64,000 nt of DNA from Geminocystis sp. NIES-3708 (GTDB lineage Bacteria; Cyanobacteriota; Cyanobacteriia; Cyanobacteriales; Cyanobacteriaceae). The position numbers were made by a program, and so were the translations under genes. Under the pieces are notes generated by a model that had not been told where the DNA came from, searched no databases, and saw only the letters and a list, made by a program, of their open reading frames with translations. Shown here piece by piece: positions 15,103 to 20,839 of the stretch. How positions within the stretch are numbered: the stretch's first letter is position 1; the number at the start of each line of letters is the position of its first letter. The DNA is taken from the NCBI RefSeq assembly GCF_001548095.1, contig NZ_AP014815.1, positions 1,921,656 through 1,985,655 of the forward strand. Direction: 5' to 3'.

Positions 15103-16254
15103 ATGTTTCAACTTCCCCAATTTTATCAGGAGTATTTAAAAAAACAGTTTAATTTACCTCAATATTTAACTCTTTGTCTTTTAGTTAATTTACTTCAAAA
15201 TCTTAAAACTGTTAGGTTAGAAGAAATGGCAAAACTTTTTCCTTATCCGATTAAATTAAGAAGTAGAATTAAAAAGTTACAAAGATTTTTAAGTCTGAAA
15301 AATTGGAAAGTTGAAACCATATGGTTTCCGATTTTAAAATCATGGATTATGAACCAATGGGAATCAAACAAAGTAATTTATTTAGTCATTGATAGAACAC
15401 AGTGGCAAAACATTAATATATTGATGGTAAGTTTAGTTCATCATCAAGGAGCTATCCCTGTATATTTTATCTGATTAAATAAAAAAGGAAGTAGTAATTT
15501 ATCAGAACAAAAACAAGTATTAGAAGCAAGTATTAATTTATTAATTGAATATAAAATAATCGTTTTAGGAGATAGAGAATTTTGCTCTGTGGATTTAGCA
15601 AAATGGTTATCAGTAGAGAAACAGGTTTATTTATCTCTACGTTTAAAAAAGAGTGAATATGTGGAGTTAGAAACTGATATATGGTTTCGATTGAGTGAAT
15701 TAGGTTTATCTCCAGGATTCTCCGTATATTATCGAGGAATAAAAGTTACAAAAACCAAGGGATTCTCAGGAATTAATTTAGCAGCAAAATGGAAGAAAAA
15801 CTATAGACATAAATCGAATAAACAGCCATGGTTTATTCTCACAAATTTAGAAAGTATGTCGGAAACAATCTCTGCTTATTCCAAAAGAATGGGTATTGAA
15901 GAAATGTTTAGAGATTTTAAATTAGGAGGTTATAACTTAGAAAGTACAAAACTTGAAAATGAACGACTAATTTCTTTAATTATACTGATAACATTATCCT
16001 ATAGTTATTCAACATTTATAGGAGAAGAAATTAAAAGAAAAGGAATAAGTGAATATCTAGTTAGACCCATAGAAAAAAGAAGAAGATATAAAAGATATAG
16101 TGATTTTTCTATTGGTTTAAATGGGATAAAATGGCTAAGTGAAATCTGCTTTTTTCAAGAACAATTAGATAAGTTAACCTCTTTATTTCCTCAGAAACAG
16201 TCCTATTATCGTCAAGGTATGAGGGCTATTTCCCTTATCCAATCTGCATTCTGA
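15103..16254 (+). pseudogene. IS4-family DDE transposase with in-frame stop
   Basis: Reading one frame from ATG 15103 to the stop at 16252-16254 gives about 383 codons with one internal TGA at 15472-15474. The DDE residues are recognisable: Asp in IDRTQW (first part), Asp in LGDREF, and Glu in the IS4 signature Y-(2)-R-(3)-E-(6)-K, seen as YSKRMGIEEMFRDFK. Both halves are in the same phase, so this is a point nonsense change (a TGG codon is the simplest ancestor), not a programmed frameshift. Codons after the TGA remain open and well conserved in pattern, so the stop is probably recent. Confidence 0.9.
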
Positions 16255-17359: not shown

Positions 17360-18565
<1,206 letters not shown>

Positions 18566-18589
18566 CTAAATAATTACTCCTTGTGCCTT

Positions 18590-18865
18590 TTATGCTTCAT
18601 TAGCAACAGTACTAGCACCCACTAAAGGAGCAACAATACCGATAGGGGAAATATTAATAATTTGTCCACCTAAACGACTAATCCGATTCATTTCTTGATT
18701 CATACGAGAATAAGATACGGCAATAAAAGAATTTCCGCTTTGACGAATAGGATAATCTAAGTTATTGCCATCTTTTTGGGCAATTCCAGTTACTTCAAAC
18801 AAAAAGCGACGTTCTTCAACAACAGGGTTATTAGCGAAAGTTTTCACAGCTTTTGTATTTCTCAT
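18590..18865 (-). CDS. stand-alone CpcD-like domain protein, paralogue of the PetH N-terminus
   Basis: A 91-residue protein that is almost entirely one CpcD-like domain. It matches the N-terminus of the adjacent PetH segment for segment: [19 protein letters not shown] in both, [11 protein letters not shown] in both, [11 protein letters not shown] in both, RLGG in both; roughly 70 percent identical over 75 residues by eye. It is closer to PetH than to what I recall of classical CpcD rod caps. It ends in a short Ala/Val tail with no catalytic domain. It is transcribed first in a two-gene unit with petH. Likely role: a rod-tip linker that competes or cooperates with PetH for phycobilisome ends (inference); tandem duplication is the simplest origin. 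Confidence 0.85.
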   Translation of the reverse strand: MRNTKAVKTFANNPVVEERRFLFEVTGIAQKDGNNLDYPIRQSGNSFIAVSYSRMNQEMNRISRLGGQIINISPIGIVAPLVGASTVANEA

Positions 18866-19171
18866 ATCTTTAATATACTCCTGATTTTATGAAAGTAAAG
18901 TAAAGTTTGTCTTAAAACGCTTATCATGTCAAGTTTTCACCACATAAACTTCATGGGCTAACAAAGAAACAAAAATATAAGCTCAATGTCAATCTTACCA
19001 AAACAGGGAATCAAAACCATTAGTAATTAGGAATCAGGCTTTAATATCATGAAAAAAATCCTTTAAATTATTGCTAATTATAATCAATTAAGATAATCTA
19101 AGAATAAGCTTATTAAAATATATTCTTAATTAGGATGCTCAAATAACACCACTATCAAATAAAGAAATAAC
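18866..19171. promoter_or_regulatory. divergent promoter region, petH unit and isiB-isiA
   Basis: This 306 bp AT-rich gap must hold the promoters of both divergent units. Around 19076-19125 there are several NATWAT-like hexamers and a palindrome AATAAGCTTATT, which could be part of a Fur site expected for iron-stress genes, but no clean 19 bp Fur box is readable. I see no gene or RNA here. Confidence 0.4.
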
Positions 19172-19684
19172 ATGGGAAAAATTGGCTTATTTTTCGGAAC
19201 TCAAACAGGTAATACTGAAACTATTGCCGAAGCTATCCAAAGAGAACTTGGAGGGGATAGCATAGTAGATTTACATGATGTAGCAGATGTAGAAGTCGAT
19301 AACTTAAAAGAATATGAATATCTGATCATTGGTTGTCCTACTTGGAATATAGGAGAACTACAGAGTGATTGGGAAGGTTTATATGAAGATTTAGATCAAA
19401 TCGACTTTAGTGGCAAGAAAATTGCTTATTTTGGCACTGGAGATCAAATCAGCTATTCCGATAATTTTCAAGATGCCATGGGGATTTTAGAAGAAAAAAT
19501 ATCTTCTCTTGGCGGCAAAACCTTCGGTTATTGGAGTACTGACGATTATGATTTTAACGAATCAAAAGCAGTACGTAACGGTAAATTTGTCGGTTTAGCC
19601 ATTGATGAAGATAATCAATCAGATTTAACCTCAACTCGTATTAAATCTTGGGTTACACAAATCAAGAAAGAGTTTAGTTTGTAA
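19172..19684 (+). CDS. isiB: long-chain flavodoxin
   Basis: A 170-residue FMN electron carrier that replaces ferredoxin in photosynthetic electron transport during iron shortage. The phosphate-binding loop FGTQTGNTETIAE is at residues 8-20, the aromatic FMN contact in CPTWNIGELQSDW at about 53-65, and FGTGDQISYSDNF at about 88-100; the long-chain insertion is present. It lies upstream of isiA, the reverse of the isiA-isiB order described in several model cyanobacteria. Expected to be Fur-controlled, although I could not identify the site with confidence. Confidence 0.95.
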   Translation: MGKIGLFFGTQTGNTETIAEAIQRELGGDSIVDLHDVADVEVDNLKEYEYLIIGCPTWNIGELQSDWEGLYEDLDQIDFSGKKIAYFGTGDQISYSDNFQDAMGILEEKISSLGGKTFGYWSTDDYDFNESKAVRNGKFVGLAIDEDNQSDLTSTRIKSWVTQIKKEFSL

Positions 19685-19707
19685 AATGAACAATAAATTT
19701 ACAAAAC

Positions 19708-19749
19708 TTTATCTAAAAATAATTGCAAAATTATTGCATTTAAGATAAA
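19708..19749. repeat. nested inverted repeats between isiB and isiA
   Basis: An outer pair TTTATCT (19708-19714) and AGATAAA (19743-19749) encloses an inner perfect 7 bp hairpin AATAATT-gcaa-AATTATT (19718-19735). It could be a processing or pausing structure between isiB and isiA, or overlap an AT-rich operator. There is no T run, so it is not a standard terminator. Confidence 0.5.
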
Positions 19750-19810
19750 TTATTGATAAGTTTATTAATAGTAAGTAGCAATAAGCTGTGAACAATAAAA
19801 GGAAGGTAAT

Positions 19811-20839
19811 ATGCAAACTTACGATAACGCTGAAGTAAAATACGATTGGTGGGCAGGAAATGCCAGATTTGCCAATCAGAGTGGTTTATTTATCGCCGCT
19901 CATGTCGGACAAGCTGCCCTGACTGCTTTTTGGGCTGGAGCTTTCACTCTATTTGAAATATCCCGTTTTGACATCTCCTTACCAATGGGAGAGCAAGGAT
20001 TAATTCTTTTACCCCACCTAGCTACTTTAGGTTGGGGCGTTGGTGAAGGTGGTCAAATTGTTGACACTTATCCTTACTTTGTCATTGGGGCAATTCATCT
20101 TATTTCTTCGGCTTTTTTAGGTGCAGGTGCTTTATATCATGTTTTAAAAGCACCAGAAGACTTAAATAAAGCTCAAGGACAAGCTAAAATGTTTCATTTT
20201 ACATGGGATGATTCTGCTAAATTAGGCTTAATTCTCGGTCATCATCTGCTATTTTTGGGTGCAGGTGCTTTATTATTAGCTGGAAAAGCGATGTATTGGG
20301 GAGGGTTATATGATGCAACTACTCAATCTGTGCGTATCATTGAACATCCTACCCTCGATTTAGCGACTATCTACGGTTATCAAACTCACTTTGCGAGTAT
20401 CAGTAGCTTAGAAGATTTAGTTGGTGGTCATATATATGTGGGTATAATGCTCATGATCGGAGGCGTATGGCATATTCTTGTACCACCTTTAAAATGGGCA
20501 AGAAAAGTTCTTATATTTTCCGGAGAAGCAATTTTATCTTATTCTTTGGGGGGAATTGCTTTAGCTGGATTTGTTGCCGCTTATTTCTGTGCTGTCAATA
20601 CTCTAGCTTATCCTGTCGAGTTTTATGGTCCTGCTTTAGAGGTGAAATTGGGAATCACCCCTTATTTTGCAGATACCGTTCAATTACCTTACGGAGAACA
20701 TACATCTCGTGCTTGGTTAGCTAATGCTCATTTCTTCCTTGCGTTCTTTTTCTTACAAGGACATTTATGGCATTCTTTACGGGCTTTAGGATTTGATTTT
20801 CGTCGGGTAGAAAAAGCATTGGACTCTATCCAGGGCTAA
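19811..20839 (+). CDS. isiA: iron-stress-induced chlorophyll-binding protein CP43'
   Basis: A 342-residue six-span chlorophyll antenna protein of the CP43/Pcb family that rings photosystem I under iron stress. Recognisable parts are the start [20 protein letters not shown], paired His in membrane spans ([44 protein letters not shown]) and [13 protein letters not shown]. It lacks the large lumenal loop of true CP43, giving the usual IsiA length. It lies 126 bp after isiB, so it may have its own promoter, and is closed by a strong terminator. A Pcb antenna protein is the alternative, but the flavodoxin neighbour favours IsiA. Confidence 0.95.

Follow-up and report, generated by a model that had tools for sequence, protein, structure and literature searches.

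A stand-alone CpcD-domain gene of petH origin and its probable role as a substitute rod cap in Geminocystis

This study concerns a short gene located directly before petH in Geminocystis sp. NIES-3708. It lies in a stretch of 64,000 nucleotides (nt) of the genome of this cyanobacterium (assembly GCF_001548095.1, contig NZ_AP014815.1, positions 1,921,656–1,985,655), which is referred to below as the window. The gene encodes a protein of 91 amino acids whose single domain, CpcD, is also found at the N-terminus of the petH product, ferredoxin-NADP reductase (FNR). It seems very probable that the gene arose by partial duplication of petH in place, in company with the loss of cpcD; its product would likely cap rods in the stead of CpcD and compete with the FNR form that carries the docking domain (FNR-L). 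At the level of sequence, the petH origin of the small protein and its replacement of CpcD in the genome can be regarded as established.

Descent of the small gene from petH

The genes and their immediate features, in window coordinates, are as follows.

18590–18865, minus strand: PetH-derived stand-alone CpcD-domain protein, 91 amino acids, ATG start (open reading frame (ORF), Pfam, NCBIfam, trees)
17360–18565, minus strand: petH, FNR with an N-terminal CpcD domain (FNR-L), 401 amino acids (ORF, Pfam, NCBIfam)
18326–18565, minus strand: docking (CpcD) domain at the PetH N-terminus, paralogue of the small gene (Pfam, pairwise alignment)
18566–18589, minus strand: gap between the small gene and petH, 24 nt, with the ribosome-binding-type sequence AAGGAG (sequence)
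18272–18274, minus strand: Met98 of PetH, internal, in the linker, a possible start of the short isoform FNR-S (inspection)

An earlier inspection of the letters alone (the sequence-only reading) had pointed to the small ORF; its coordinates, its length, the gap and the blocks shared exactly with PetH were all confirmed. These blocks comprise 20 and 11 residues, and over 81 aligned positions 58 residues are identical and 69 similar (E 2e-40 in a single comparison). The sole Pfam domain of the small protein is CpcD (PF01383; 70.9 bits against a cut-off of 27). Its stop codon follows after 91 codons, and FAD- and NADP-binding domains are lacking, whereas PetH carries the CpcD domain ahead of its flavin and NADP domains. 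On the NCBIfam model rod_cap_CpcD (NF058509, cut-off 80) the small protein scored 100.3 bits and the N-terminus of PetH 104.4, so that the name CpcD, when given by profile, cannot settle the origin of the protein. The small proteins derived from PetH in the three lineages described below, classical CpcD and the PetH tested all passed this equivalog model, and database names thus hide different origins.

The small ORF behaves as a real gene: in the family sample (15 genomes of 5 genera) it is paired with petH in nine genomes, with differing flanks and a low ratio of non-synonymous to synonymous differences (pN/pS; median 0.19 over 36 orthologue pairs, from simple pairwise counts with synonymous sites near saturation). 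As judged from these comparisons, the gene is under purifying selection and the copy has been retained by selection. Differences between the small protein and the neighbouring PetH are fixed in all nine pairs (e.g. Thr or Ser26 for Val, Asn45, Ser73).

A phylogeny of CpcD and PetH N-termini, the check proposed in the sequence-only reading, placed the small protein within PetH. The main tree comprised 120 docking domains and 78 columns. Of 188 rows, 167 remained once two rod-linker fragments of G039 and near-identical rows from 16 loci had been removed, and the 120 were taken from these without L181, which is truncated by a contig end, and some others. The locus set omitted L001–L039 (overlapping stretches of genomes that were fetched again) and L060, L061 and L067 (the same genomes as G014, G001 and G005). 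Rows from a scan of 60 genomes are those among the matches listed, with some genomes giving no petH or CpcD row, and the order-level counts were not used. A second tree of 107 rows combined 52 of 54 new rows (from 51 further stretches) with part of the rows of the first. It was once the first tree had been inspected that the Microcystis and Roseofilum groups were singled out for testing.

In the 120-domain tree, 44 classical CpcDs formed one clade (support 99/97; 100/95 on 34 rows in the second tree), and 13 petH-adjacent small proteins fell inside PetH, in three places. Those of the nine family genomes formed one clade (99/98), which places the split from PetH before the two paired genera, and the small protein grouped within the PetH of its own family in nested sets of 9, 19 and 24 rows (99/98, 97/95 and 100/84, respectively). 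In the approximately unbiased (AU) test, forcing all CpcDs into one clade was rejected (p-AU 3.7e-5), as was forcing the nine family proteins together with classical CpcD (p-AU 0.0099). Of the 25 columns that tell the family PetH (5 rows) apart from its classical CpcD (3 rows), the small protein was PetH-like in 12, CpcD-like in 1 and neither in 12; the corresponding counts were 1/0/1 in the Microcystis family and 4/0/4 in the Roseofilum family. In a tree of FNR domains, a contig titled Tatlockia sp. (L139) was found to bear a petH grouping with the cyanobacterium G057, likely owing to contamination of a metagenome-assembled genome.

Independent evidence came from the DNA upstream of the small gene, where the following features were recognized.

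18866–18945, minus strand: conserved promoter/leader block upstream of the small gene, whose start-proximal 44–47 nt match the petH leader of single-petH sister genera (alignment)
18901–18912, minus strand: leader motif AGACAAACTTTA at -47 (motif search)
18927–18932, minus strand: TTGACA element, candidate -35, kept in 14 of 15 aligned family rows (alignment)

The leader of the small gene is 97.9% identical over 47 nt to the leader of the single petH of G011 (Cyanobacterium aponinum PCC 10605) and of G008, and 86–87% identical over 44–47 nt to those of G005, G007 and G010; the matched stretch includes AGACAAACTTTA and AGGAGTATATTAA. AGACAAACTTTA was searched for in the 260 nt upstream, with at most 2 mismatches allowed (2.3% for shuffled upstream sequences). 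It was found at -47/-48 in 9/9 small genes and at -47 to -50 in all six petH genes of family members lacking the copy, but before none of the nine petH genes located behind a copy. Among 102 other petH genes, outside the family, a single match was seen (2 mismatches, at -11). The leader of the small gene thus matches the petH leader of the sister genera, and its motif is absent before petH where a copy precedes it, which argues that part of petH was duplicated in place. A sigma-70 scan of the region gave 6 sites against 7.2 expected from shuffles and is therefore uninformative.

The view of the protein as a free-standing duplicate of the PetH docking domain is consequently supported by the phylogeny with its AU tests and, independently, by the upstream DNA. 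The other proposal of the sequence-only reading, a CpcD shaped by gene conversion with petH, was not borne out. No sign of recent conversion was detected in the nine genomes, in which the small genes cluster apart from the petH genes. The DNA of the paralogues is 69–76% identical within a genome (orthologue medians are 79% for the small gene and 82% for the petH part), and the CpcD-like column is one of 25.

Stand-alone CpcD genes in the genome, the family and other lineages

Searching all six frames of the complete genome with PF01383 revealed six places, i.e. petH, the small gene and frames of 298, 287, 259 and 69 amino acids. Those of 298 and 287 amino acids (C1:1653737 and C1:1636673) have the size of rod linkers, and no CpcD ORF was found behind either of them. 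The 69-amino acid frame (G000:C1:2927168) is probably ApcC, as read from its size. With the CpcD-specific model at E <= 1e-17, the two scoring genes of the genome were petH and the small gene. The latter, which adjoins petH and not the rod-linker gene cpcC, is thus the one stand-alone CpcD-domain protein found besides the ApcC-size gene. As no other CpcD was found, the small protein would serve as a substitute for CpcD and not as an additional linker.

The 15 family genomes divide into nine with the small gene and petH in tandem, three with a classical cpcD and three with no stand-alone CpcD of this type; the copy and a classical cpcD were found together in none of them. The paired genomes include Geminocystis sp. 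NIES-3709, of the same genus as the window, and the classical ones C. aponinum PCC 10605. In the latter group cpcD lies directly behind the rod-linker gene, with petH elsewhere. Classical CpcDs of the sister genera, encoded behind cpcC, begin with MLSTLVSGSS or MLGNSVINSA, and the N-terminus of the small protein, VKTFxNNP, is PetH-type. An RpoB tree united the paired genera in one clade (87/86) that excluded the single-petH genera, and g4 was the first to branch off. Among 82 genomes drawn over the class, 63 gave any match, and reading of the list identified the pair in one, the window's own.

Divergent from the small gene and petH, the window carries flavodoxin and CP43/IsiA-like genes (19172–20839, plus strand; Pfam Flavodoxin_1 and PSII). 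As candidate members of the same unit they were rejected, since among 14 other family petH loci (a few of the stretches being short) both stand beside petH in G003 (L042) only. Two ORFs at 15103–16254 (plus strand) resemble a broken transposase, a name given by reading.

In G003, which belongs to the genus of the window, the small gene is absent even though the flavodoxin and IsiA-like genes stand upstream as in the window. The petH of this genome has the leader of the small gene (92.9% over 84 nt) and its first codons (MRTTKVVKTF), followed by PetH-like sequence (Val26, Thr45, Thr73). Recombination between the two repeats would be expected to produce such a gene, and G003 seems to have lost the copy in this way. 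Two further observations concern other family members: (i) G007 and G010 (L046, L049) represent a genus in which no stand-alone rod-cap-type CpcD was found, and PetH may be their only rod-end protein with a CpcD domain, and (ii) petH of G013 (L052, 5265–5684) shows a frameshift in an A run just behind the internal Met of the linker, reflecting an assembly error, slippage or a real loss of the long form.

Similar copies apparently arose next to petH more than once, in three lineages, as far as the trees and the upstream DNA indicate. A Microcystis-type frame of 88 amino acids was present in 12 of the 50 genomes of that family search (before petH in ten, on a different contig in one and with no petH match listed in one), and no such pair was found in the other 38. 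In four of the tandem genomes, searched with PF01383, no classical cpcD was detected. Forcing the Microcystis proteins together with classical CpcD gave p 0.194 in the first tree and 0.163 in the 107-row tree. However, TAGGCTAAA occurs at -45 before the small gene in 10/10 loci (from closely related strains). Elsewhere it precedes 2/70 other CpcD rows, 36/148 petH rows overall and 22/23 non-Microcystis petH loci fetched from that family. This petH-like promoter supports a petH origin of the Microcystis gene, although the protein test is not decisive. Microcystis also carries a third kind of CpcD-domain protein (L246, 1444–1887, and L247, 1270–1761; frames of 148 and 163–164 amino acids), the C-terminal part of which resembles DUF1816; low-score frames of similar size occur in other genomes of the family.

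The third lineage is the Roseofilum-type family of G047 (L130 is Roseofilum halophilum), in which, at E <= 1e-12, the pair was found in three of ten genomes, a classical cpcD in one and only petH in six; within the Roseofilum-type genus the small gene is absent from three of six genomes. Its grouping with classical CpcD gave p 0.060 with two rows and was rejected (p 0.0025) with three rows and closer relatives in the 107-row tree. Loss of cpcD before its rebirth is the natural reading in this family.

Proposed history and alternative explanations

When a structure model of the small protein was submitted to Foldseek, the top three hits were the rod-cap CpcD chains 7sc8_BN and 8tro_d and the FNR docking domain 8hfq_m (E 5e-5 to 7e-5). 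In Synechocystis, CpcD and the FNR docking domain bind the Pfam00427 domain of CpcC2 in a similar pattern, the latter at the distal end of a CpcL-type rod (PMC10322944). For Synechococcus PCC 7002, FNR lacking the docking domain is reported as not found in isolated CpcG-type phycobilisomes (PMC9319322). Given the similar binding of CpcD and the FNR domain, and the closeness of the model to these chains, the small protein would be expected to bind and cap rod ends and to compete with FNR-L. It is thus likely a rod cap that shares the site of FNR, replaces CpcD and limits the rod ends that FNR occupies, and in this way may tune how much FNR is bound, as the sequence-only reading had suggested.

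The simplest history would be as follows. The ancestor of two genera, that of NIES-3709 and a second one, would have lost cpcD of the phycocyanin operon and, before or after this loss, undergone a partial tandem duplication of petH. The duplication would have inserted a docking-domain copy, ending in a stop codon of its own, ahead of petH and behind the petH promoter/leader. Retained by selection, the copy would have diverged at a few fixed sites. Its product would occupy the distal end of phycocyanin rods by binding to the Pfam00427 domain of the last rod linker. There it would cap the rods in place of the missing CpcD, in competition with FNR-L for the rod ends.

The statement that the small gene is transcribed 24 bp ahead of petH holds for its position, while transcription was deduced from the spacing. 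In the nine tandem genomes of the family the gaps measure 20–43 nt and contain ribosome-binding-type sequences, which suggests one message, and the two genes are probably expressed from one dicistronic mRNA. The ratio of the small protein to FNR-L, and hence the rod ends open to FNR-L, would then be set by translation and not by two operons. FNR-L and FNR-S are reported to be chosen through different starts (PMC4143364). A Met is present in the PetH linker of 15/15 family genomes (by inspection), and the stricter MTQA-like pattern in 10/15. It is conceivable, though we consider it doubtful, that the control of FNR moved too: with the leader now before the cap gene and petH as second cistron, the choice between rod-bound FNR-L and soluble FNR-S would have been rewired into a translational dial in which a single message yields a free cap and FNR-L. 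If true, cyanobacteria would have a recurrent route, in which cpcD is lost and formed anew from petH, for linking the length of the antenna to the final step of electron transport.

The sequence-only reading had held that a protein grouping with CpcD and forming the only cpcD of the genome would be just a relocated cpcD. As far as profile searches show, the gene is the only stand-alone one of rod-cap type in the genome, and NCBIfam does name the protein CpcD. The protein does not group with CpcD, and the idea that an ordinary cpcD left the cpc operon and came to lie ahead of petH, to which we give hardly any credence, is rejected by the trees, the AU test, the PetH-type N-terminus (unlike those of the sister genera's classical CpcDs) and the petH-like upstream DNA. 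If such a relocated gene had been overwritten by ancient and complete conversion from petH, the protein tree would be the same as after duplication, and Ser73 is indeed CpcD-like. We nevertheless find this quite unlikely, because that column is isolated, two events are needed where one suffices and no later conversion is apparent in the nine genomes. The identical gene order in all three lineages could also reflect one old tandem copy inherited by all of them and lost elsewhere. This is very improbable, considering that forcing all 13 petH-adjacent proteins into one clade was rejected (p 0.0035), that each set has its closest PetH within its own lineage, that the upstream DNA differs by lineage and that so few genomes of the class (1/82) carry the pair. 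Finally, we allow a small chance that the duplicate was kept for some other role, e.g. as a decoy holding FNR off the rods without capping them, or is of little use. Its absence from G003, the g4 genomes and half of the Roseofilum-type genus would fit this; purifying selection and the same arrangement in three lineages in which no classical cpcD was found with it speak against it.

Several points weigh against duplication in place followed by replacement of CpcD. The structure model is modest (mean predicted local distance difference test score, pLDDT, 68.8), the domain trees rest on 78–79 columns, and two of the family genomes are only 63–67% complete. Besides the isolated Ser73, nearly half of the diagnostic columns are of neither kind. 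The clade of tandem genera has a support of only 87/86 with RpoB; the tree of FNR domains leaves the first splits open and, unlike RpoB, groups g4 with g2 and g5 (96). Moreover, no stand-alone CpcD was found in G003, in g4 or in six of the ten genomes of the G047 family; some genomes thus manage without one, and such a cap appears dispensable in some lineages.

According to one published view (PMC10696076), FNR gained a CpcD-like domain at the origin of hemidiscoidal phycobilisomes or after it. The flow proposed here runs in the opposite direction, from FNR to a stand-alone CpcD, and apparently did so more than once. No title or abstract opening found in the open-licence PubMed Central literature reports a CpcD copy adjacent to petH. 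As a warning for annotation, the name cpcD, when assigned by profile, covers genes of more than one origin.

Compared with known systems, the small protein has the same fold family as ApcC, the core linker of allophycocyanin (1b33 chain N), which is probably encoded by the separate 69-amino acid gene. With CpcD (PF01383; NF058509) it shares the single domain, the size, a profile score above the cut-off and the nearest folds (7sc8_BN and 8tro_d); it differs in its location before petH and not behind cpcC, its PetH descent and its PetH-type N-terminus and leader. It resembles the docking domain of PetH (FNR-L; 8hfq chain m) in 58 of 81 residues, its place inside the PetH clade and the petH leader of the sister genera, but lacks the catalytic domains of FNR and shows fixed differences from its neighbour in 9/9 pairs.
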